From IMG/VR virus record IMGVR_UViG_3300018428_000158, positions 1-25,665 of that record: a stretch of DNA of 25,665 nucleotides; one strand, given 5' to 3'. Both the position numbers and the translations under genes were made by a program. Position 1 is the stretch's first letter, and every line of letters begins with the position of its first letter. This document shows positions 7,487 to 25,665 of this stretch, piece after piece. The stretch comes from a virus. Below the pieces are notes generated by a model. It saw only the letters and a program-made list of their open reading frames with translations. It was not told the origin of the DNA and ran no database searches.

Positions 7487-8525
7487 CGAGAATCTCCTCT
7501 TCGATTTCACCAGCACCGTACAAGAACTCACTCTTACACGCATCATCGATTAACGCCAACACATCTTCAGTGTAATACTTCTCAGGCTCTCGATTGATAA
7601 CTGTACCAAACACTTTTGACCCGTCAGGCAACTCATATCGAGTAGATACTTTCTTGAAGATACCATACTTCTCTGCGATTTCAAGCAAGCCATAGTATCG
7701 GTCCAGCCCATGCTGATAAGTAATCTTCACTTCGACTTGTGCGTTCTCTTTAGTCAGACGAGACTTCTGCATCTTTGCTCTGACGATATTACCAATGACT
7801 TCTTTACCGTCTTTCTCTTTCTTCTTGGAAAGCATAACGATAGTTGATGCGGTGTACTTCAAGCCGGAGCCACCAGACATTTCTTTCATAGGAACATAGG
7901 AACCAACAACATCATAGACGTGGTTTGTTACCATAAGAGGAACACCAATCTTTGCAAGTCGTAGATTGAGTACACGGAAAGTCGCTTTGAGAATTGACGC
8001 TTTAGTCATATCCTTAGTCTCTTTTCCTTCCATCGTGTCTTCCATCTCTTTAGTGGATGACAACTGACCTAAAGAGTCAAGAATCATAATCATCGGTTCA
8101 CGCTTACTTTCAGGTTGCGCAGAATAGTTCTCAATGATTTTCAGTGCAGTGTGACGAAACTTCTGAATAGTGTCGGGCTCTGAAATGACAACTCGTGACG
8201 TATCAATACCACGGTCTTCCATCATACCCTTTGTGACAGCCGCTTCAGTATCGAAGTAAATGACACCACCTGTAGGATTTGCATCTAGGAATTGCTTGAC
8301 GATACCTAGAACAAAAAACGTTTTACCTGTTGCGGATTCACCGGCGAATGCGGTGACTTTATTATTGGGAACACCACCGTAGATACTACCAGACAACACA
8401 GCGTTGAGTGCGTAACTACCAGTATCGATGCATCCCGTATATTCAGCAGACGCATTACCATCGGCAAGGATTTTAGTATCCTCATCTTTGAGCGTCTCAA
8501 CTAGATTATTAAAAAATTTACTCAT
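7467..8525 (-). CDS. uvsX: UvsX RecA-like recombinase
   Basis: Strand-exchange protein for recombination-dependent replication and repair, working with UvsY and gp32 in T4. The 352 residues (T4 UvsX 391) contain Walker A GESATGKT at 62-69, a switch glutamate region [10 protein letters not shown], Walker [10 protein letters not shown] near 146, and the L1/L2 area with NHVYDV and [10 protein letters not shown]. The ATG at 8525 follows an AACAGGAG site. The gene has its own sigma70-like promoter, one of two identical copies flanking the two-gene cassette upstream. Its 3' end overlaps the gp40-position gene. Confidence 0.95.
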
Positions 8526-8532
8526 ACAAAAC

Positions 8533-8583
8533 TCCTGTTCAAGTTGCGGTCATTATATCACAAAAGATAAAAAAAAGCAAGGG
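8533..8583 (-). repeat. 51-bp direct repeat, copy A (uvsX leader)
   Basis: Identical over 51 bp to 9788-9838. It contains the -35, spacer, -10, leader and the AGGA ribosome binding site core. On its right it directly abuts the TAG stop (8584-8586) of the PD-(D/E)XK-like gene; on its left it runs into the uvsX start. It holds only one arm (CCCTTGC on the minus strand) of the terminator hairpin that is complete at the other copy. Confidence 0.95.
8552..8580 (-). promoter_or_regulatory. Sigma70-like promoter of uvsX
   Basis: On the minus strand: -35 TTGCTT (8575-8580), 17-bp spacer ending TTTTGTGA, -10 TATAAT (8552-8557). The TGTGA before the -10 and the T-rich spacer are shared with the promoters near 9807, 21842 and 24948. 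Confidence 0.8.
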
Positions 8584-9165
8584 CTAAAGTTTCGAACATT
8601 TTACGATTTTATGTTCCTTCGACTTTGGATCGACAAAAATAAAAAAATCAGCATGCGATAATTTCTCTGTTTCAGTGACATTGTAACGTAAATTATGTGC
8701 AGTTTTTATTTGGAAGGTAAACTGATTACCTTTAGTATCAGTGAGGATGGCGTCTATTTTGTAAAGCATATCAATTTCAGATTTATGACCACTAACAAGA
8801 TTTACATTGGAAACGTCAGGATACTGCCTTAAAATATCTACCGCAATATTTTCAGTCTTTTTACCTTTTTCAATACAGTCATCAACAATTTCCTTCATCT
8901 TTTTACAAACATCACTATTCGGGTCAAAAACGTCCGGATCATTTGTAACACACTGGTAAAGGTCTTTCATTTGATCGAGTGGATTTTTATGAGGAATATT
9001 ATACCAAGAGAGCAATTCTTTCCCAAGTTTAACATTTGTAGTTACATAGCTGTAAAAGTAAATGTCTGAAGGTGAGATTTCGTCTAAGTGAAGAAAAAAC
9101 CATTTGTATTTTTTTCCTATGGGACTATCTTGTAAAGCTTCCTTAAAAATCATCATCCAACTCAT
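8584..9165 (-). CDS. PD-(D/E)XK nuclease-like protein of the inserted cassette
   Basis: A 193-residue protein with a possible restriction-endonuclease-like core. A helix with E106 precedes the signature: KIDAIL (D138), a turn DTKGNQ, then FQIKT (Q152, K154), matching the D...(E/Q)xK arrangement. A following strand HADFFIFVDP is also usual for this fold. Its N-terminal 100 residues are unrecognised. The gene is coupled to the upstream ORF by TAATG, and its TAG stop directly touches the 51-bp repeat before uvsX. No full-length family is recognised. It may cleave DNA or be a DNA-repair/anti-defence nuclease; role unknown. Confidence 0.7.
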   Translation of the reverse strand: MSWMMIFKEALQDSPIGKKYKWFFLHLDEISPSDIYFYSYVTTNVKLGKELLSWYNIPHKNPLDQMKDLYQCVTNDPDVFDPNSDVCKKMKEIVDDCIEKGKKTENIAVDILRQYPDVSNVNLVSGHKSEIDMLYKIDAILTDTKGNQFTFQIKTAHNLRYNVTETEKLSHADFFIFVDPKSKEHKIVKCSKL

Positions 9166-9779
9166 TAGACCAAAGGTCGTAAAACAGATTCTAAATCATT
9201 TTTTAGCTGACTAAGCGACATAAATTGACTATACCTGTATTTTTTTTCAAGAGATTCCTTAGAAATACATTTCATCACAAAGAAATCTTGCAAAGGAAAG
9301 TCGCCGTCTCTAAGTTTTCGGGCAGCAGGGTGGTCGTCTTTTTTCACAAGGAACTCCTTTCCTTTACCAAAAAAGTATTCTTGACAGAACCGACCTAAAC
9401 GTAGATTAATATTTCCCTGTTCGCTGTCGCTATACATTATACAGAGAAGCTTCGGCTCTAAGGATGTAATAGGAAAATTTAACATCGGTTCGAAACCATA
9501 GATAAAAGTAAGGCCTTTTTGAGGAACTAAATGTTTTTTACCATAATAGTTAACTCTTTTAGAGGGGGCTTCAAAATCTTCTAGCGAAACCTTCAGGCCC
9601 TGAGAAGTTTGAATTAAAGCCTTTATATAATCAAAGATGCTGTAATTAGGTTCTGTTGTAAATCTGACCCATTTCAAACTTGGGAGCATTTCAAGTTTGA
9701 TATCATTTGCGATATCTACCATGGCATATGGATTTATATTAGATAGGGGTAATACCGCTCTGCGAGATTGCAAATTCAT
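9165..9779 (-). CDS. Unknown protein, first gene of the repeat-bounded cassette
   Basis: A 204-residue protein with no motif I can place. The open frame extends to a TTG at 9797, but the ATG at 9779 (MNLQSRRAVLPL) has an AGGA site 8 bases upstream and is preferred. It is basic with aromatic residues and short hydrophobic strands (LTFIYGFEPML, KLLCIMYSDS, DFFVMKCIS); no membrane segment or signal peptide is visible. The promoter is the second copy of the uvsX promoter. The stop overlaps the next start (TAATG), so this and the PD-(D/E)XK-like protein are probably made together and may form one system, such as a specificity or partner subunit plus a nuclease. Confidence 0.7.
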   Translation of the reverse strand: MNLQSRRAVLPLSNINPYAMVDIANDIKLEMLPSLKWVRFTTEPNYSIFDYIKALIQTSQGLKVSLEDFEAPSKRVNYYGKKHLVPQKGLTFIYGFEPMLNFPITSLEPKLLCIMYSDSEQGNINLRLGRFCQEYFFGKGKEFLVKKDDHPAARKLRDGDFPLQDFFVMKCISKESLEKKYRYSQFMSLSQLKNDLESVLRPLV

Positions 9780-9787
9780 AACATAAT

Positions 9788-9838
9788 TCCTGTTCAAGTT
9801 GCGGTCATTATATCACAAAAGATAAAAAAAAGCAAGGG
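9788..9838 (-). repeat. 51-bp direct repeat, copy B (cassette leader)
   Basis: Identical to 8533-8583 over 51 bp, offset by 1255 bp. Beyond its right end this copy continues with TTCG and the second hairpin arm, which copy A lacks. That suggests this is the intact original junction and copy A a partial duplicate, or that the cassette arrived with its own copy. Confidence 0.95.
9807..9835 (-). promoter_or_regulatory. Sigma70-like promoter of the two-gene cassette
   Basis: Minus strand TTGCTT (9830-9835), 17-bp spacer, TATAAT (9807-9812), identical to the uvsX promoter. The -35 lies inside the stem and T-tract of the terminator at 9825-9856, so termination of the upstream gene and initiation of this unit share bases. 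Confidence 0.8.
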
Positions 9839-9856
9839 TTCGCCCTTGCTTTTTTT
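9825..9856 (-). terminator. Strong bidirectional hairpin terminator after the DUF262-HNH gene
   Basis: The stem GCAAGGG/CCCTTGC (9832-9838 and 9843-9849) closes a 4-base loop (TTCG on plus, CGAA on minus) and is extended by A7/T7, giving up to 14 bp and a T-run on both strands. It lies about 10 bases beyond the DUF262-HNH stop codon at 9866. Confidence 0.85.
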
Positions 9857-9865
9857 CGTTGGCTG

Positions 9866-11332
9866 TTAAGCGGCCAGTCGTTCTAGAATGTCTTGACACA
9901 AGTGATTGGGATAGTCACATCCATAATCTCTCATGAATTCATCCAGATCAAGACCAGACATTTTTTTGTTAATCTTAGCACTTATCACTATAAGATTATC
10001 ATCTTTTGTCGTTCCTCCGTTTTTGAATGATATGATGTGACCACCTTCACACAAATCTAAAGAAATTTTTTCTCCGGAAATTGCGCACCTTCCACCCTGC
10101 TCGTTATACTTTCGAATAATCTGCTCTGTTGTAAAAAGTCTTGGGGAAGAGACTGCAAGACCTGGAATTTTTTCCATGCCCATCATTTCTTCAAGAGGTT
10201 TAAACTTCAAGACCATTTGTTTATTGATGTATTTTGTCATCAAATCAGTAAATTTCATTTTACCTTTTTTACTATCGGCCTCATATAATATTGGATCATC
10301 TGACTTAGAATTTAAAATCAACTCATTTAAGTTTTCAAAAAATGAATCTGAGAATTTTTTGGTGTCCACAATTCTAAAGTCTTTCAATTCCAGATAAACA
10401 ATATATTGAAACAAGTATAACAGTCTTCCTTGACTGGTTAAAACAGCTTTACGCAACCTTCTATTTTTATCCTGCGCCTGATATATTTTTTTCACCTCAT
10501 TCAATATTCTTACAACGTGTTTTGTCGTTGCATTGGCTTCTTCTGGCTCTTTTTGATACCGACTTGTAGTATCGTAGTCTCGGTCCAACTGTTGCTTATC
10601 CAGAGTAAAAATCAAAGAGTTTCGTTTTCTAATGCTTTTTACTATCGAGAACATTTTTGCAACAAGCTCTTCGCATTGTCTAGTTTTGTTTACGTTTAGA
10701 GTGTCAGTTAAAATTTCCCATATTGGGTGCTTTCGATAGCCGTTTTCAATGTCAAGCTCACATGGATTTACCAAACCACGAATTGCTGATGCCCAATAAC
10801 CTTTAAGACCATTTCTCTTTTCTGCGTCACTTAAGGGGTTTCCGTTATTTAACTCAACAAACTTTTCGCATGCGTCAGAGTCTGACATATTTTTGTAAAC
10901 AGTTATGGCAATTCTTATTTTTGAAAAATGTGCTAATTGTTCTTCAGTCAAGTCTTCATATTTCTTACCTGACAGGTGGAACCCTACCCCAACACCTCCG
11001 GATATCGGAACAAAAATACCATCCTCTATAGCAAATTTTTCGACCACATACTGGATGATACAATCAATCCTTTGCAGCCCATCGAGAACCTCATACGTCC
11101 CATCAGGAAGTTGGCGGACATGTATAGTGTTTATTCCACGTCCCTGCCAAAGAGATTTCAATATTTTTCTCATCCACGACTTCGTACCAACCACATTTCT
11201 CTGGTACCAAGGATTTTGACTGATCTTATCATCATGATAAAGATCTATAAGTTTAGATAAAGTCCAAGTCTCAATTACCCAAGGTTGATCAGAATTCAGC
11301 CAAGAACCAGATGTCATAGTTTTTGAGGTCAT
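9866..11332 (-). CDS. DUF262-HNH nuclease (GmrS/GmrD-like restriction family)
   Basis: A 488-residue protein with an N-terminal DUF262 (ParB/Srx-like) domain and a C-terminal HNH nuclease. DUF262 hallmarks are PWYQRN (41-46) and VLDGLQRI (82-89), which in this superfamily bind and hydrolyse nucleotides. The HNH domain shows C416, C428, GGHIIS with H432, GG, DDN with N446, and N455. Such proteins include the GmrSD and BrxU type IV restriction enzymes that cut modified phage DNA. In a phage, it could attack competing phages or act as a selfish nuclease. It has its own promoter and terminator and sits between polymerase-linked genes and uvsX, where T4 has other genes. Frequent long A/T runs suggest composition unlike its neighbours. 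Domain calls are firm; target is unknown. Confidence 0.85.
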   Translation of the reverse strand: MTSKTMTSGSWLNSDQPWVIETWTLSKLIDLYHDDKISQNPWYQRNVVGTKSWMRKILKSLWQGRGINTIHVRQLPDGTYEVLDGLQRIDCIIQYVVEKFAIEDGIFVPISGGVGVGFHLSGKKYEDLTEEQLAHFSKIRIAITVYKNMSDSDACEKFVELNNGNPLSDAEKRNGLKGYWASAIRGLVNPCELDIENGYRKHPIWEILTDTLNVNKTRQCEELVAKMFSIVKSIRKRNSLIFTLDKQQLDRDYDTTSRYQKEPEEANATTKHVVRILNEVKKIYQAQDKNRRLRKAVLTSQGRLLYLFQYIVYLELKDFRIVDTKKFSDSFFENLNELILNSKSDDPILYEADSKKGKMKFTDLMTKYINKQMVLKFKPLEEMMGMEKIPGLAVSSPRLFTTEQIIRKYNEQGGRCAISGEKISLDLCEGGHIISFKNGGTTKDDNLIVISAKINKKMSGLDLDEFMRDYGCDYPNHLCQDILERLAA

Positions 11333-11364
11333 TACAAAGTCCGTTTTTCATCAATTCAAGTCAC

Positions 11365-11393
11365 ATAGTACATCAATGTATGAGGTTTGTCAA
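11365..11393 (-). promoter_or_regulatory. Sigma70 promoter of the DUF262-HNH gene with internal palindrome
   Basis: Minus strand TTGACA (11388-11393, consensus -35), 17-bp spacer, TACTAT -10 (11365-11370). An inverted repeat TACAT-TG-ATGTA (11369-11380) overlaps the -10 and spacer and could be an operator. The design differs from the TTGCTT/TGTGA promoters of the phage replication genes. The rest of the 99-bp gap (11333-11431) shows nothing else. Confidence 0.7.
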
Positions 11394-11431
11394 GCTAAAA
11401 AATGAAAAAGTGGTGGAAAATAATGGAAAAC

Positions 11432-12325
11432 CTATGGAGATTTCAAATTATCTAAGGAAAATGGACCTTTAGTTTTTCCCTGTTCCTTCATAACTTTATT
11501 AAGTTCTTCTTTCTTCATAGGTACAGGGTCAATAGTTGTTGCGTCAATGTATTCGTCTGGAATCTTAGTATTAGTAGGCTGAGGAGGTCTAATCTGCATT
11601 AGAGAATAATTCCCAGCAATCAATAACAGTACCGCTAATGGGTCAAAGACAAATATGATTGTTATGATGACCCACGTAACAGCTTTTTCCAGAATCTCTT
11701 GATCCGTTTCGCCATAGACAAACGCTGCGATGTATTTGATTGGTCCGACTTCTGCTTCGACTTCTCTTCGTTCCGCTCGTATCGGCGCAAGTTCCTGGCG
11801 ATAAGCAGTGACTTTATCCTGCGCTTTCTCGATTTGGTCGAGGAGACGTGATCGCTCTTCGGCTTGTTCGTTTCTTGCGTTGACACCTTTTGTCACAGCC
11901 CCTAGTTCAGTGTATCTATCAATTTGATCGTTTAGGGTGCTAATATCCAAACGGGCCTGAGATATAATCTCTTGCTCAATCGCAATGCGTTCTTCTATTA
12001 ACACTATTCTATCACTAACATCACCGGATGTCAACCCCTGGTCGATGTGTGCTTTTGACAGGAACCCAAAGATTCCCAATGATGTTATCATAACAAGTAT
12101 CGAAACAGCAAACACAAAATAGTATTTCAGCAACTTAGGTGCGTTATACCAGTTTCGATAAACCCAACTTGCAGCAACAAGTTTGGATACTTCTAGCACA
12201 CTACCCATCACACCGATAGCAACAGGGCTTGCAGCAAAGATAGCAATCAACCCTGCGATGGAATAGTATGCCGCTACGAGAGATACCGACAATCCAGTCA
12301 GTATCATCATAAGTGCAGTCTTCAT
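11432..12325 (-). CDS. Multi-pass membrane protein with central coiled coil
   Basis: A 297-residue protein. Hydrophobic segments lie near residues 5-30, 33-52 and 67-92, then a long charged coiled-coil region (about 100-190, with RIVLIEERIAIEQEI and RSRLLDQIEKAQDK), then a last membrane segment near 215-242, and a polar tail rich in proline and lysine. Similar proteins occur near gene 43 in marine T4-like phages in my memory, with no assigned function. It starts one base after the stop of the preceding gene, so it belongs to the polymerase operon. It may act on the host envelope, for example in superinfection exclusion, but nothing in the sequence shows this directly. Confidence 0.75.
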   Translation of the reverse strand: MKTALMMILTGLSVSLVAAYYSIAGLIAIFAASPVAIGVMGSVLEVSKLVAASWVYRNWYNAPKLLKYYFVFAVSILVMITSLGIFGFLSKAHIDQGLTSGDVSDRIVLIEERIAIEQEIISQARLDISTLNDQIDRYTELGAVTKGVNARNEQAEERSRLLDQIEKAQDKVTAYRQELAPIRAERREVEAEVGPIKYIAAFVYGETDQEILEKAVTWVIITIIFVFDPLAVLLLIAGNYSLMQIRPPQPTNTKIPDEYIDATTIDPVPMKKEELNKVMKEQGKTKGPFSLDNLKSP

Positions 12326-12326
12326 T

Positions 12327-12764
12327 TTAGCCTCTAGTCAACGTAACAATCTTACTGACTTGTTCTTCTAACTTTTCTTTTCTGTTAGGCCAATAGATAT
12401 ATTCTTTCTCTGGATTCTTCATAAGATTGACCAACAACGGCACAATCATCTTTTCAAGTTCTGTAAGTTTTGCTTGTGTTGATGCTAACAACTGAGATTC
12501 CTTAGTCGCATAGGATTCTTCTAGTTGCAACTTTTGTGTATCTAAACCAAATGTTGTTTGTTCGTAGATAGCAAGAACACTATCAATTTTCTGTTCCAAT
12601 CGAGCAATCGCTTCGTTTGATGTTGATACAGTCTCACGAATAATTGTTGTCTCAAGTGTCTCACTATCCGTGACTTGAGTTACTTCGCCTTCATCGACTG
12701 CGCTGAAGCCAAAGTCTTCTTGTGTTCTTAAATCCAAATATTCTTGTGGTATTGGAGTTGTCAT
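12327..12764 (-). CDS. Coiled-coil phage protein coupled to DNA polymerase gene
   Basis: A 145-residue acidic protein of unknown function. The N-terminal 50 residues are low-complexity acidic/threonine-rich; residues 50-115 form a likely coiled coil (AIARLEQKIDSVLAIYE, KESQLLASTQAKLTELEKM); the C-terminus has YIYWPNRKEKLEEQ. It overlaps the gp43 stop by ATGA and is followed directly by the membrane protein gene, which also has a coiled coil, so the two could interact. No enzyme motif is visible. Confidence 0.75.
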   Translation of the reverse strand: MTTPIPQEYLDLRTQEDFGFSAVDEGEVTQVTDSETLETTIIRETVSTSNEAIARLEQKIDSVLAIYEQTTFGLDTQKLQLEESYATKESQLLASTQAKLTELEKMIVPLLVNLMKNPEKEYIYWPNRKEKLEEQVSKIVTLTRG

Positions 12765-15259
12765 TTCTTGAAAAACCTCGCTAGTGATGCCACTGGTTCT
12801 GTTGTCCAGCCAAACGTATTGACGATAATGTTTAGCGGTTCTAAGTATGCTTTCTCAAATTGTAAATCGTAATCTATATATTTATCTAAATCAAATTGTT
12901 TAGGTAAGACAGACATAATCGCAAGCACATTTTCGTGCGTTGGATTAGGCACTTTCATATAGCAAAACTTGATTTTCTCTCCGTCTTTGATGGACTCATA
13001 TTTCTTAGTCAGCCCATGCTTTTCCAGCAATGAGTTGTATATGATTGAACCTCTAACGTGTATCGGTGTTCCTTTGCCGTACATAGATACTGCGTTCTTA
13101 TACTTCGTCAGTTCAGACACACCACGAGGAAATGCTACATCCTCGAAAGGGAGTTTCTTGAATTCTTTTCTGAAAGAATTGTTGAATGCGTGTAAATCGG
13201 ATTCAGTTCCTGTCATCACAATCTGCAGCGCTTCCTTAATCTTATCTCGGCAAGACATCGGAGTTGATGACTTGACTGCTTCGATACCCATCATCTTCAG
13301 TTTAGGCTCAGCATATCGCACACCCTCACTGTCCCACACGTTGAGAATGTATCGCTTCTTCGCAGTCCAGATTCCAGTATCAGCAATGACTTCACGCTTC
13401 ATAATCATCTTCTGGTCGTATGCGTTCATATAGTCAGCAAGTTCCTGGTACGACTTATCGATAAATCCTTGAAACTTTTCTTCACACACTTTGTCTAGGA
13501 AGTCGATTACTTTACTCTTATCGGGGATATTATCCTTATAGACTTTCTTGACTAGAGGACCAAAGTTCACATAGATAGAATCTGTATCACTCGCAATCAC
13601 ATAATCAATACCATCAGTGTCTAGTAGTTTGTTGAGATAGCCATTGACTTTGTTTTCAATCCAGCGAATAGATAGCTGACCTGACAATGTGATTGCTTCT
13701 GCTTGTCTCACATCGTAGAAGCGAAACCATTGATTCCCGATAGCGCCATACGCTGAGTTCAACTGAACTTTCTTTGCTAACTGTAGATTAGAATACTTGG
13801 AGATTTCATTCTCGCATTTCTGCTTCTCTTCTTTTGTTTTAGCAGCCTCTTTGTTCTTCTCCCACTCAAGCATCAACTTTTTGTACTTAGACCTATCGGT
13901 ATACATCGTATCCATCATCTCAGGCAGGAATCCAAGTTTATCTTTTCGAAAGTAATGCCCGTTTGCAGCCATACAGGCTGATGACGAAGATTTGTATTCT
14001 CCTTTGAGCAACTCATCCACGGTAACGTAAGTGTGTTTACCTTCAATGAAAGTGTCAGGGGATACGTTATATTGCATAATCAAATGCGGATAGAGTGAGT
14101 TCAAGTCAAAGGAACATACCCATTCATACTTCCCAGGCACAGGTTCTTTGACGTAAGCACCTTCGTACTTGGTGTCTTTTCTGTTGCTCTTCTTTGGAGG
14201 AACAACAATACGCTTCTTGTATAAATGATTGTGAGAAAGCGTATCCCACATTCTAACTTGTGTAAACACGTCAGTAAGATTTACTTTAGCATCGTATGCT
14301 AGAGCGAGCACCATATCAATCAACTTCATCTTATCATCGATTCTATCCACTAACGCAACGTCTTTGATGTTATAGTCGATAAACGTTTGATAATCGTGCT
14401 TGTATAGTTGGTTTAGATTTTCATACTCACTGTAATCCAACTTACGCTCACCCAGTTCTACGAACGCAATATGGTCAAGTCTAAAACTTTCCTGTTGCGA
14501 ATAGGTAAACTTCTTATACAGTTCAAGATAATCAAGTATAGAAATACCAACAAGGTCAAACGCAGTCTGTTGCTTGTTGTGAATAGTAGTTGTTCGCTCA
14601 CTCACATATCCCCAAGGAGACAATCGCTCTGCAGACTTTTCGCTTAGCACTTTAGAGATTCTGTTGTAGAGATATGGAATATCAAAGAACTGTACGTTCC
14701 AGCCAGTAACGATATCAGGCGCTTTCTTCTCCCACAAATCTAGAAAGTTTAGGATAAGTTCTCGCTCATCGTAACACTTAATGTAGTCAACATCTTTGCG
14801 AGTGTTGTTGTAGTCACCACAGCCAAGAACGTAGTACCTGCTGCGCATCTTGAATGTGATAGCAGTGATAGGCTCATTAGCAAGTGAAGGTTCTGGAAAT
14901 CCATTGTCTGACCCAACCTCGATGTCTATGTTTGCTATGCGCAGCAAAGAAGGGTCATAGTCAACACGTTCTGGATACTCCTCATTGATATATGCATACG
15001 CATAGTTTGTTGTGCCATAGTATTCAAAGTTAGGAACATCTTGATACCTGTCAACAAAACTAGCAGCATCTCGAAGACTATCCATCTCCTTGGGTTTTAC
15101 GTTTTTACCATCCAGAGTTTTCCATCCAGTTTCCTGCTGAGACGGAAGAAAAAACGTTGGGCAATACGGAACTTTACGAGAGTATTTCTCTCCCTTAGAG
15201 TATCCGATTTCTAGAATGTTGTTGCCGCGTCGTGTAAAGTGTGTATAGAATCTTGTCAT
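12761..15259 (-). CDS. 43: Family B DNA polymerase, T4 gp43-like
   Basis: Replicative DNA polymerase with 3'-5' proofreading. At 832 residues it is somewhat shorter than T4 gp43 (898). Exonuclease motifs: DIE at D112/E114, NVQFFD with D193, and YNIKD with Y296/D300. Polymerase motif A is DLNSLYP starting at D385, motif B is the KKVQLNSAYGAIGN segment, and motif C is ASDTDSIYV with the two catalytic aspartates. The C-terminal end FFKK is consistent with a short clamp-binding tail. The start overlaps the preceding small gene by ATGA. In T4, gp43 represses its own translation through an RNA hairpin; a hairpin lies one gene upstream here. Confidence 0.97.
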   Translation of the reverse strand: MTRFYTHFTRRGNNILEIGYSKGEKYSRKVPYCPTFFLPSQQETGWKTLDGKNVKPKEMDSLRDAASFVDRYQDVPNFEYYGTTNYAYAYINEEYPERVDYDPSLLRIANIDIEVGSDNGFPEPSLANEPITAITFKMRSRYYVLGCGDYNNTRKDVDYIKCYDERELILNFLDLWEKKAPDIVTGWNVQFFDIPYLYNRISKVLSEKSAERLSPWGYVSERTTTIHNKQQTAFDLVGISILDYLELYKKFTYSQQESFRLDHIAFVELGERKLDYSEYENLNQLYKHDYQTFIDYNIKDVALVDRIDDKMKLIDMVLALAYDAKVNLTDVFTQVRMWDTLSHNHLYKKRIVVPPKKSNRKDTKYEGAYVKEPVPGKYEWVCSFDLNSLYPHLIMQYNVSPDTFIEGKHTYVTVDELLKGEYKSSSSACMAANGHYFRKDKLGFLPEMMDTMYTDRSKYKKLMLEWEKNKEAAKTKEEKQKCENEISKYSNLQLAKKVQLNSAYGAIGNQWFRFYDVRQAEAITLSGQLSIRWIENKVNGYLNKLLDTDGIDYVIASDTDSIYVNFGPLVKKVYKDNIPDKSKVIDFLDKVCEEKFQGFIDKSYQELADYMNAYDQKMIMKREVIADTGIWTAKKRYILNVWDSEGVRYAEPKLKMMGIEAVKSSTPMSCRDKIKEALQIVMTGTESDLHAFNNSFRKEFKKLPFEDVAFPRGVSELTKYKNAVSMYGKGTPIHVRGSIIYNSLLEKHGLTKKYESIKDGEKIKFCYMKVPNPTHENVLAIMSVLPKQFDLDKYIDYDLQFEKAYLEPLNIIVNTFGWTTEPVASLARFFKK

Positions 15260-18181: not shown

Positions 18182-18615
18182 TTTACAGTGATATGCTCAT
18201 AATATTTTGTTTCAAGAAGTTCACGATTCTTTAGATGTTGATCTTCAATGTCATCTTTTGACTGCCCATAATACTCTACTGCGAGGTGTTTGTCAATCAT
18301 TAATTGATTCACAGAACATTGTCGGTCAGTTTCGGGATCATACACAATGAATTCACCAAGGATACGACCGAACTTACCTGTCGCATCTTTGTGCGTCTTC
18401 AGTGTACCTTCTTTACCTAACATTGCTTTTAGGAATTCCTTAGCCGCAAGTCCAAATCGCTTTTCCGTTTTATCACGAGTACGGGACTCAGGAGTATCAA
18501 TACCATACAACCTAACGCGCTGGTTACTGAGAATAACATCAAAACCAAGATCAATGTCAATGTCCACTGTATCGCCATCCACCACCTTTTTAATTTTGCA
18601 CCTATACTCATACAT
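18178..18615 (-). CDS. SNase-type (thermonuclease) nuclease
   Basis: A 145-residue OB-fold nuclease of the staphylococcal nuclease family. The catalytic pattern is clear: VVDGDTVDIDIDLG, then R35-LYGID40-TPE43-SR, and GKFGRILGEF with R84. It would cleave DNA or RNA with calcium, perhaps aiding host DNA breakdown or repair. No signal peptide is seen, so it is probably cytoplasmic. Its ribosome binding site (AAGGA) lies in a 23-bp repeat copied from the 3' end of the DUF3310 gene. It overlaps gp62 by ATGA. Confidence 0.9.
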   Translation of the reverse strand: MYEYRCKIKKVVDGDTVDIDIDLGFDVILSNQRVRLYGIDTPESRTRDKTEKRFGLAAKEFLKAMLGKEGTLKTHKDATGKFGRILGEFIVYDPETDRQCSVNQLMIDKHLAVEYYGQSKDDIEDQHLKNRELLETKYYEHITVK

Positions 18616-18636
18616 ATTATTTTCCTTGATTAAAAT
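18614..18636 (-). repeat. 23-bp direct repeat, copy 1 (SNase leader)
   Basis: Identical to 18832-18854. On the minus strand it reads the FNQGK-stop codons of DUF3310 plus the AAGGAAAATAATAT leader. Weaker similarity extends about 20 bp further right in both copies. Confidence 0.9.
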
Positions 18637-18667
18637 TTAAAATTGTTTGTATTCCGCTCAGATTCAT
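18617..18667 (-). pseudogene. 16-residue ORF: duplicated tail of the DUF3310 gene
   Basis: The mini-ORF MNLSGIQTILNFNQGK ends in GIQTILNFNQGK, matching the DUF3310 C-terminus GTQTVLDFNQGK. Its ATG overlaps the stop of the 51-residue ORF (ATGA), so it may be translated. It most likely is a relic of a partial gene duplication that also supplied the SNase ribosome binding site. Confidence 0.6.
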
Positions 18668-18819: not shown

Positions 18820-18831
18820 TTAAACTCCACT

Positions 18832-18854
18832 ATATTATTTTCCTTGATTAAAAT
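18832..18854 (-). repeat. 23-bp direct repeat, copy 2 (end of DUF3310 gene)
   Basis: Covers the last codons (DFNQGK) and stop of the DUF3310 gene at 18835 and the following few bases. Identical to 18614-18636. Confidence 0.9.
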
Positions 18855-19266
18855 CTAATACAGTTTGTGTTCCACCTTTAGTTATCGCATCCCACTGTTC
18901 TGGTGTAATATCATCAATACTGTGATGCCCAGGTGCAGGCTGATTCATATAATCTGATAACACTTTAGGTCGTTGACTCTGTTCCTCATCGTGTATGTAT
19001 AACTGTATCAAAGCATAGTGTAAAACTTTCAGCAGGTCTTTTCTATGATCTTCAGGCTTTCCTTTCTTTCCATATCTCTGTGCATACTTCAGCACATTAC
19101 CGATACAGAAACCAGTTCCATGCCCGCCGTCAATAACAAACTCGGTAGCCTGAAACTTTTCCTTTGCATAATGTTGGTCATACGTTGAGTTTACATACTG
19201 ATGAAACTCTTTGATGAGTTCCCCTTCATTGAACTTGTAGTTAGGTGTAATTTCACATGGTTTCAT
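18835..19266 (-). CDS. DUF3310 family phage protein
   Basis: A 143-residue protein with the DUF3310 pattern: FVIDGGHGTGFCIGNVLKYAQR, then GKKGKPEDHRKDLLKVLHYALIQLY. Here the gly-asn-lys-tyr-x-x-arg core and the DL-K-x-x-x-Y helix are recognisable. The domain is common in phages, often near nucleotide metabolism or replication genes, and has no settled function. The N-terminal 45 residues and the C-terminal 45 are extra and less conserved. The C-terminal end has been partly duplicated downstream. Confidence 0.8.
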   Translation of the reverse strand: MKPCEITPNYKFNEGELIKEFHQYVNSTYDQHYAKEKFQATEFVIDGGHGTGFCIGNVLKYAQRYGKKGKPEDHRKDLLKVLHYALIQLYIHDEEQSQRPKVLSDYMNQPAPGHHSIDDITPEQWDAITKGGTQTVLDFNQGK

Positions 19267-21816: not shown

Positions 21817-21841
21817 ATTCACCTCTAGTCATAAAAAACAT

Positions 21842-21870
21842 ATTATATCACACAATAATAAAAAAAGCAA
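21842..21870 (-). promoter_or_regulatory. Sigma70-like promoter of gp45
   Basis: Minus strand TTGCTT (21865-21870), 17-bp T-rich spacer ending TGTGTGA, TATAAT (21842-21847). Very close in sequence to the uvsX promoter. Confidence 0.8.
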
Positions 21871-21877
21871 GAGAAGA

Positions 21878-23745: not shown

Positions 23746-24206
23746 ACTTGTTCTATTCCCACATTACTGTCAAGTAGAAACTGTTTACCTGACCCCACAT
23801 TTGATTCATAATCATCTGCGTAATAGACTGCAGTGATTCCGCTCTGGTGTATTAATTTAGCACAGTTGATACACGGCATATGAGTCGTAAACATTACAGC
23901 ATCCTTACACGATTCCGAACTCTGTGCTACTTTCGCTATAGCGTTTGTCTCTGCGTGTAAGACTTCATCCTTTGTAATCTTCTTGCAGTATACTTCGTAG
24001 TCAGAAGGATGCATCCAGTCTTCAATCGTTTCGGGGTCGTAGTACTCACACTCGTTATCCCAGCCGGATGGCATTCCATTGTAACCAATGGAAATGATGC
24101 GATTATCTTTTACAATAATCGCACCGACTTGCGCTCGTGTAGCATAGCTAAGTTCGGCAAATGTTTTTGCCGTATTCATATACGCTTCTTTGAATCTACT
24201 CTTCAT
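23742..24206 (-). CDS. cd: Deoxycytidylate deaminase-type enzyme
   Basis: A 154-residue zinc-dependent deaminase, probably converting dCMP to dUMP for dTMP synthesis. The zinc and catalytic motif HAE is at H84-E86 and the second motif PCINC at P111-C115 supplies two cysteine ligands. An insertion with C53, H66 and C74 lies between the first strand and HAE, as in T4 dCMP deaminase, which binds a second zinc there. The ATG at 24206 lies within the end of the preceding gene (11-bp overlap). Confidence 0.9.
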   Translation of the reverse strand: MKSRFKEAYMNTAKTFAELSYATRAQVGAIIVKDNRIISIGYNGMPSGWDNECEYYDPETIEDWMHPSDYEVYCKKITKDEVLHAETNAIAKVAQSSESCKDAVMFTTHMPCINCAKLIHQSGITAVYYADDYESNVGSGKQFLLDSNVGIEQV

Positions 24207-24924
24207 CTAGATACTCGAAACATTCCTTAACTGCTTTAGTTTTTTCGTCTGTGTTATGGTAGTTGAAATAATCTTGTGGAACGTCATGCCACTTTTTTAC
24301 CATCCATCCTACATACGCATAGTATCCTTTGCCATTAGTGTCGCACCAATCGTAGTTGAGTTCGCAATGAGTTTTATCATACCATACTTGCTCAGGCATA
24401 GTAGCAACGTCAGTCTCAACAAATCCAACTTGAAACTTGTTGATATCGAAGGGTTCATTCAGTTCCAAATCAACTTGCCAGAACTGACCTTTCTCTGCGC
24501 TATGAAACATAAGAACAGGAACAACATCTCCGTTCTCTAGTTCTTCGTCGCTAGGCTCTTCACTTCCAGCATAACACTCACGGCTATACACATGAGTAGC
24601 ATCATTCAAACTAAAGATTTCAGGCTCACCAATATCTTCTCCGTCATCATCTACTCGCTGAACATAGACATCCGAATCACCATAGCAACTGTTGAAGTGT
24701 TCGAGGTCGTCTATCTCGTACCAACCACCTGGATTGTATCCTTCGATTGGCTCAGGTGAATCAGAGGTCTCCCAATCTACATCCCAATCACACAATACTT
24801 CGATCAAATCGCCGTCACCATCTTCTTCAACACGCTCTTTCCAATAGCGAACGAAGTCAGCATTGACTGTTCCAATAGCAACTTCACCGCCGTAACGCCC
24901 CGCTCTCACAACATATTTGTACAT
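24196..24924 (-). CDS. Acidic protein of unknown function
   Basis: A 242-residue, strongly acidic protein rich in tryptophan and tyrosine. It begins MYKYVVRAGRYGGEVAIGTV, then alternates acidic turns (EDGDGD, VDDDGED, EEPSDEELENGD) with aromatic strands (CDWDVDW, YYAYVGWMVKKWH). Beta-rich folding is likely. The acid charge recalls DNA-mimic or inhibitor proteins, but that is speculation. A good promoter precedes it, and a GGAG site lies before the ATG. Confidence 0.7.
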   Translation of the reverse strand: MYKYVVRAGRYGGEVAIGTVNADFVRYWKERVEEDGDGDLIEVLCDWDVDWETSDSPEPIEGYNPGGWYEIDDLEHFNSCYGDSDVYVQRVDDDGEDIGEPEIFSLNDATHVYSRECYAGSEEPSDEELENGDVVPVLMFHSAEKGQFWQVDLELNEPFDINKFQVGFVETDVATMPEQVWYDKTHCELNYDWCDTNGKGYYAYVGWMVKKWHDVPQDYFNYHNTDEKTKAVKECFEYLDEE

Positions 24925-24947
24925 AATATACTCCTAACGAATATCGT

Positions 24948-24976
24948 ATTGTATCACAAAAGTTTCTAAAAAGCAA
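24948..24976 (-). promoter_or_regulatory. Sigma70-like promoter of the acidic-protein operon
   Basis: Minus strand TTGCTT (24971-24976), 17-bp spacer ending CTTTTGTGA, TACAAT (24948-24953). The -35 lies within the last codons of the upstream PLP enzyme gene. It shares TTTTGTGATA with the uvsX promoter. Confidence 0.75.
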
Positions 24977-25665
24977 CATTCCAATATAAAATATTTTTTG
25001 GCTTATCGTGCGTCTCATAGTAATCAAGCATAGGCTGCCAACCCTTTGCGTCATATGTAGGTGCAGAAGGAAAGGGAGGTACCTCGTGTTTCTTGACTGG
25101 GCGGTCAAACTTGTATGGCGAGATATGATGGATTGCTCGACCAATCTCTCTTTCTTTCATAGAGTGCCCAACTTGAACTACATGGATTTCTGCTTCGGGA
25201 AACGCTAACTGAAGCCCTCTATTGAGAGTTCCTGACGACCCTACTGACCATATAGCATCAGGCACGATAGGAAGGTCTCTAGCAACTTTGATGATAGATG
25301 CTAGTACAGTTTCGTGTTCTAATCCAAGGGGGAGAACTCGGCGAGTGGATGGGCTCTCTTCTACATACTTACGTGCTTTTGATTGCGTCACATTGAGCAT
25401 ACCCATTTTGACCCAGTGATATTCTGCACCGAGTTCCAACCCCCTCCTTTGGTAGTCATGGAGTTTATCCATACTACGCTCTGCCATAAACAGTACGGCT
25501 TTCTTTCCGTACCTTTCGCACACGACCGGCAGACTAATCTGTGCATAACCTGTTGCGGGGCAAGACCCAAACACCCATTCTTTGACATCTCTGTTTTCTT
25601 CTGCGTGACCTATAAAGTAATCAATGAAACGAATCTTGCTACCATAACTTAGCAAATCGTCACGC
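24966..25665 (-). CDS. PLP-dependent enzyme, fold type II (ACC deaminase/cysteine synthase-like), 5'-truncated
   Basis: The frame is open through the right edge, so the N-terminus is missing. The first visible residues RDDLLSYGSKIRFIDYFIG match the RDD...GGNKxRKLE segment of D-cysteine desulfhydrase and ACC deaminase. The lysine in YGSK is the likely PLP-binding residue. GSCPATGYAQIS corresponds to the substrate loop, and SVGSSGTLNRGL to the glycine-rich phosphate-binding loop. A TTG at 25655 would give a start, but it would cut into the PLP-lysine motif, so the gene almost certainly begins outside. The phage role could be amino acid or sulfur metabolism. Substrate is not predictable. Confidence 0.75.
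   Translation of the reverse strand, partial: RDDLLSYGSKIRFIDYFIGHAEENRDVKEWVFGSCPATGYAQISLPVVCERYGKKAVLFMAERSMDKLHDYQRRGLELGAEYHWVKMGMLNVTQSKARKYVEESPSTRRVLPLGLEHETVLASIIKVARDLPIVPDAIWSVGSSGTLNRGLQLAFPEAEIHVVQVGHSMKEREIGRAIHHISPYKFDRPVKKHEVPPFPSAPTYDAKGWQPMLDYYETHDKPKNILYWNVAF

Follow-up and report, generated by a model that had tools for sequence, protein, structure and literature searches.

The uvsX locus and its direct repeat

This study analyzed a 25,665-nucleotide stretch of viral DNA (IMG/VR record IMGVR_UViG_3300018428_000158, positions 1 to 25,665), which is referred to as the window throughout. Two small genes, termed the cassette, lie in front of the recombinase gene uvsX and between two copies of a direct repeat (Table 1). 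All genes associated with the repeat are on the minus strand, on which the order is a gene for a membrane-like protein (11432-12325), the GmrSD_N-HNH gene, a terminator hairpin, copy B, the 204-aa ORF, the 193-aa ORF, copy A, and uvsX. The best cultured matches of UvsX were Methylophilales phage Melnitz and Pelagibacter phage HTVC008M (Kyanoviridae), at 57-60% amino acid identity, and the genome carrying the insert appears to be that of a marine T4-like (Kyanoviridae-like) phage. The window gave no indication of genes for lysogeny. The product of the GmrSD_N-HNH gene resembles half of a type IV restriction enzyme and PADLOC NsnA, here in a T4-like phage.

Table 1. Features of the uvsX locus in the window
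Feature	Coordinates	Strand	Evidence or remarks
uvsX, RecA-like recombinase, 352 aa	7467..8525	-	Pfam RecA 1.4e-19; tblastn to phage UvsX/RecA proteins
Repeat copy A	8533..8583	-	Terminator 3' arm and T-run, extended -10, leader, and ribosome-binding site of uvsX; aligns colinearly with the lone copy in empty alleles
Extended -10 TGATATAAT	9807..9815 (copy B); 8552-8560 (copy A)	-	TGnTATAAT kept in empty alleles (TATACT in L004)
Inserted segment proper	8584..9787	.	1,204 bp between the copies; missing in empty alleles
Cassette gene 2, 193 aa	8584..9165	-	ORF; start codon and gene 1 stop overlap as TAATG
Cassette gene 1, 204 aa	9165..9779	-	ORF; no recognized family
Repeat copy B	9788..9838	-	51/51 to copy A; leads the first cassette gene
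Intrinsic terminator hairpin, complete	9824..9857	-	After the GmrSD_N-HNH gene; overlaps copy B through its 3' arm; 15 pairs, -19.7 kcal/mol, z -5.3
GmrSD_N (DUF262)-HNH gene	9866..11332	-	Pfam GmrSD_N 1.9e-7, just under cut-off; HNH weak; PADLOC NsnA 1.2e-17

The two copies are in direct orientation and identical at all 51 positions, and a wider match (8526-8583 and 9781-9838) reaches 97% over 58 bp. The repeat is the longest exact direct repeat of the whole window; among 100 versions of it simulated with an order-2 Markov model, the longest repeat averaged 14.9 bp and never exceeded 19 bp. The perfect repeat of the original prediction was thus borne out, as was its placement of the copies: copy A runs from directly after the stop of the 193-aa ORF to 7 bp before the uvsX ATG (8525), and copy B ends 8 bp short of the ATG of the 204-aa ORF (9779). 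Within the 25.7 kb of genome that the window covers, related units occur at 21823-21873 (32/51) and 24929-24979 (30/51), both of which are at gene starts and have the extended -10 without a strong hairpin. The former precedes a sliding-clamp-like gene and the latter the gene at 24196-24924.

The cassette has a GC content of 32.5-35.9%, compared with 42.6% for uvsX and 39.2% for the window, and the TAATG overlap suggests that its two genes are translationally coupled. For neither cassette protein did Pfam, PHROGs, PADLOC, or NCBIfam return a family above cut-off, transposases and homing endonucleases included, and comparison with PDB sequences yielded nothing above noise. By tblastn, the 204-aa protein had no phage match (and no convincing PDB match), and the 193-aa protein had no match in phages or plasmids. 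The only relatives of the cassette in the viral and genome contig collections were copies of the same allele. Weak matches to Sortase, PfEMP1, and GFO_1090 were below cut-off and were taken as noise or, at most, as leads; the GFO_1090 match (13-14 bits against a cut-off of 150) overlaps a candidate nuclease motif. This motif, in the 193-aa protein, comprises E130, D137, and Q152-I-K154 with strands predicted around them (model pLDDT 46, no family match), and is a possible PD-(D/E)XK-like core. The single-sequence AlphaFold2 models were too poor to use (pLDDT 31.6 and, for the 193-aa protein, 46.2). The earlier PD-(D/E)XK label for this gene is weakly backed by a candidate motif, with no family match above cut-off. 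The AT-richness, the coupling, and the sporadic presence beside a GmrSD-like gene fit an accessory operon, perhaps one involved in phage-phage or phage-host conflict.

The promoter and terminator within the repeat

Within each copy, whose sequence is CCCTTGCTTTTTTTTATCTTTTGTGATATAATGACCGCAACTTGAACAGGA, lie the 3' arm of a terminator with its T-run, an extended -10 that is perfect, and a leader in which AGGA forms the ribosome-binding core. A -35-like hexamer, TTGCTT, sits within the terminator arm at a 17-nt spacing and agrees with the consensus at three of six positions; a consensus scanner that needs four of six did not list this promoter. The putative promoter is, by its sequence, a conserved extended -10 with a weak -35-like hexamer. 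The original prediction had described each copy as a promoter-leader unit holding a -35, a -10, a leader, and a ribosome-binding core. The extended -10, the leader, and the AGGA core stood, the -35 proved weak, and the unit was found to carry half a terminator in addition, with the full hairpin at copy B.

The hairpin folds at copy B only because its other arm precedes copy B alone; copy A forms none (z +0.8). The extended -10 lies 9 nt downstream of the hairpin stem at copy B and likewise in the empty alleles, that is, the alleles of relatives that lack the cassette. Being near-palindromic, the hairpin is A/T-rich on both sides. Its loop is CGAA in all filled alleles, whereas it is TTCG in all empty alleles that have the GmrSD_N-HNH gene. 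Because CGAA is the reverse complement of TTCG, the loop looks as if the palindrome had been flipped, an apparent inversion. As copy A retains only the 3' arm, the seam of the insert falls at the tip of the hairpin, in the loop, and no terminator stands between the insert and uvsX. The insertion takes away a terminator that would have shielded uvsX from transcription arriving from upstream. In contigs L001 and L003, uvsX has a native leader of the same type as that of copy A (GGAGTTTT.TATG), and the leader of copy B departs from it directly after the repeat.

A promoter-pattern scan of the collection returned seven matching contigs, and all seven were uvsX loci rather than many unrelated promoters. 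Across two collection scans, the pattern was limited to the uvsX locus and a dispersed promoter family was not found. The hairpin, lacking the promoter pattern, also occurs as an ordinary terminator in the unrelated contigs L125 and L126.

Filled, empty, and emptier alleles in relatives

Relatives were collected from IMG/VR by a uvsX relative scan, pattern scans, and a GmrSD_N-HNH protein scan. The results revealed three states of the locus. The cassette and the GmrSD_N-HNH gene occur together in the window, L104, and L002. At least seven contigs (L124, L001, L114, L108, L116, L004, and L005) lack the cassette, and in these the GmrSD_N-HNH gene leads directly to a single terminator-promoter with uvsX next. 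Neither module is present in L003, L006, and L007, where uvsX has a plain promoter. The allele with a single repeat copy and no cassette that the original prediction had anticipated is hence found in nature, and the two genes are far from universal among relatives: L104 and L002 were the only filled IMG/VR contigs besides the window. When the flanks of the window were joined in silico, they aligned across the junction to L001 and L108 with one 1-nt gap.

The filled alleles are nearly identical. L104 (contig 3300018426_000386) is 99.86% identical to the window over 13,920 bp with no difference within the insert, and L002 is identical to it save for one base over 8383-13190. All three contigs have the two-copy structure, which is therefore not one contig's assembly accident. 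The empty alleles are diverse, with UvsX from 97% to below 90% identical at the amino acid level and each with its own single-copy promoter variant. Whereas the window copies match each other at 51 of 51 positions, they match the copy of L001, the closest among the relatives, at 47, that of L124 at 42, and that of L004 at 36. L124 carries the same GmrSD_N-HNH gene as the window (87% nucleotide identity) and no cassette. The filled alleles fall at scattered positions in the uvsX tree, as tips surrounded by diverse empty ones.

The GmrSD_N-HNH gene appears to be an earlier module that varies independently at the insert site. Its alleles in the window and in L108, L114, and L004 share approximately 35% protein identity (approximately 65% different), and the terminator and promoter are common to them and their 3' gene ends alike. 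This finding suggests that the upstream module has also been exchanged, with the terminator-promoter as the anchor. The interval between pol and uvsX holds varying extra genes in Melnitz and HTVC008M, including a methylase in Melnitz, and varies in many relatives; among the IMG/VR relatives, the gap in front of uvsX ranges from 13 bp to about 4 kb. Judged from these comparisons, the site before uvsX is plastic in this phage group.

The uvsX gene of L002 (L002:4666-5700) is a mosaic that is window-like to nucleotide 143, L003-like to about nucleotide 557, and then identical to L001 for 2 kb. It looks like a product of natural recombination; an assembly chimera is possible because the first switch lies in a 44-bp tract that is identical between the window and L003.

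Probable origin of the insert

We consider it probable that the two-gene cassette was recently gained in front of uvsX at the terminator-promoter, and that the resident 51-bp segment was duplicated in the process. The presence of diverse empty alleles around three near-identical filled ones favors insertion over deletion. Weighing on the other side, the filled contigs number only three and, being nearly identical at the insert, stand for one event. Because the copies are identical to each other and match those of any relative at no more than 47 positions, the duplication probably occurred in this lineage. If the copies had diverged as far as the window and L001 have, the chance of a 51/51 match would be about 0.016, which suggests that they were duplicated in this lineage or homogenized later; gene conversion after the insertion could also explain their identity.

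On this account, the order before the insertion, as seen in relatives, would have been the GmrSD_N-HNH gene, the terminator hairpin, the promoter, and uvsX. The gain of the cassette would then have duplicated the resident segment of terminator 3' arm, extended -10 promoter, and leader. Copy B with the full hairpin is predicted to close the upstream unit and drive the cassette, and copy A would supply uvsX with a complete promoter and ribosome-binding site plus half a hairpin, so that cassette transcripts may run through into uvsX. The arrangement may have left uvsX unharmed, as the original prediction proposed. The joining step may have been recombination or a template switch at the promoter-terminator, and a seam in the hairpin loop fits either. 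A process of this kind has been proposed for the promoter early stem-loop (PeSL) elements reportedly described in T4-type phages by Arbiol et al. in 2010 and Comeau et al. in 2014. As L002 suggests, the filled allele and its flanks may subsequently pass from one backbone to another through ordinary homologous recombination.

PeSLs are described (PMC4503421, PMC3950731) as stem-loop and promoter composites that bound exchangeable modules in T4-type phages. The present locus is similar in that an intrinsic terminator joined directly to a putative sigma-70-like promoter bounds small modules of uncharacterized genes that come and go between close relatives. At 9824-9857, and likewise in the empty alleles, a stem-loop terminator runs straight into a promoter within a short gap between genes, and the cassette and the GmrSD_N-HNH gene are present or absent independently at this boundary. 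With respect to the early sigma-70 promoter of PeSLs, the consensus extended -10 alone was seen here. The locus differs in having only half a stem-loop on one flank and in the perfect duplication of its flanks, specific to this lineage, next to the gene for a core recombinase. PeSLs are dispersed elements, whereas in this clade the exact element was found at the uvsX locus only, and this lack of dispersal across phages counts against the PeSL-like reading. Nevertheless, the insert fits as a further case of the known promoter-terminator-bounded module type of T4-type phages; what is new is an unusually clean, base-resolved pair of filled and empty alleles at a core gene.

The cassette may instead have brought its own promoter-leader from a phage with a near-identical PeSL-like element and entered by a homologous crossover there, with no duplication. 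This explanation, which we regard as possible if somewhat unlikely, matches the idea of how PeSLs would act and the split of the copy B leader from that of copy A right after the repeat. PeSLs are also reported to mediate gene shuffling among close T4-like relatives (PMC4503421). Against it, no donor bearing the element at a locus other than uvsX turned up in the pattern scans of the collection, and the element differs by at least 8% between alleles, so that a 51/51 match would need a near-identical donor or later conversion. It is distinctly improbable that the cassette is ancestral and that recombination between the two copies deleted it exactly, giving rise to the empty alleles. Such recombination would yield exactly the arrangement of L001 and L124, and T4-family phages amplify segments by UvsX-dependent recombination (PMC13096335). 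However, the many empty alleles are diverged and have their own promoter variants, all those of this type have the TTCG loop instead of CGAA, and no cassette relative was found elsewhere in IMG/VR. Least credible of all, and close to negligible, is an assembly artifact or chimeric contig: metagenomic contigs with repeats and co-occurring strains can misassemble, and L002 switches strain type within uvsX, but the same structure with unique DNA on both sides recurs in three contigs, and a read of normal length would easily span 51 bp.

The insert also shares features with other mobile gene types. Like a transposon, it lies between direct repeats of host sequence. A transposon or insertion sequence was rejected for lack of a transposase family match and, in the repeat search of the window, of terminal inverted repeats at the insert ends; moreover, the repeat is far too long for one and appears functional, as a putative promoter. 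The freestanding homing endonuclease genes of T4-like phages (reviewed in PMC2988022 and PMC2993671) likewise sit in intergenic positions adjoining conserved genes for replication and recombination, and the DNA around them spreads along with them. Homing, however, normally leaves no 51-bp flanking duplication, and such a gene was rejected because neither cassette protein matched a family of this kind above cut-off. We consider it highly improbable that an endonuclease, perhaps the PD-(D/E)XK-like cassette product behaving as a homing-type enzyme, generated the repeat as a long target-site duplication. The cassette does fit precisely between the two copies, and a possible nuclease motif is present in its second gene; against this, 51 bp is far above the usual length of such duplications, the family matches and inverted repeats are lacking as above, no second insertion site defines a target, and the nuclease assignment is a candidate only. 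The morons of temperate phages are similar as extra AT-rich genes with their own promoter and terminator, located between core genes and missing in relatives. They differ in that the background here is T4-like, with no lysogeny-gene sign in the window, and in that the promoter was copied from the neighbor rather than brought by the insert, after which no private terminator follows.

Returning to duplication of the resident segment, a one-step gain at T4-like terminator hairpins can be pictured, although we judge it rather unlikely: replication or recombination would stall at the tip, a foreign segment would be copied, and re-entry would take place upstream of the same promoter. The promoter would thereby be duplicated automatically, and both the newcomer and the core gene would stay expressed. 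If this were true, a template switch would have left its footprints in the loop seam, in the 51-bp duplicate specific to this lineage, and in the flipping of the loop to CGAA from TTCG.

The original prediction also held that the repeats permit exact excision, and recombination between the copies remains plausible on sequence grounds. The predicted junction consists of the CGAA-loop hairpin, the promoter, and GGAGTTTTGTATGAG; no excised allele of the window type was found among the IMG/VR relatives.

There is little documentation of how T4-like phages admit accessory genes to their conserved block of replication and recombination genes without damaging it, and a 2010 review noted that accessory-gene junctions usually have no similarity to known mobile-element signatures (PMC2993671). 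Here, the pre-insertion, post-insertion, and even emptier states are all available from natural relatives, and the junction can be read to the base as a promoter-terminator. The locus thus offers a concrete, testable case of regulatory cassettes as joints for rearranging such genomes.

Two further repeats were observed in the window. A second leader repeat (18603-18655 and 18821-18873; 53 bp, 81% identity) lies before two neighboring genes, and a large ORF (33-2135) contains imperfect repeated coding segments of 27-41 nt at 1072-1880.
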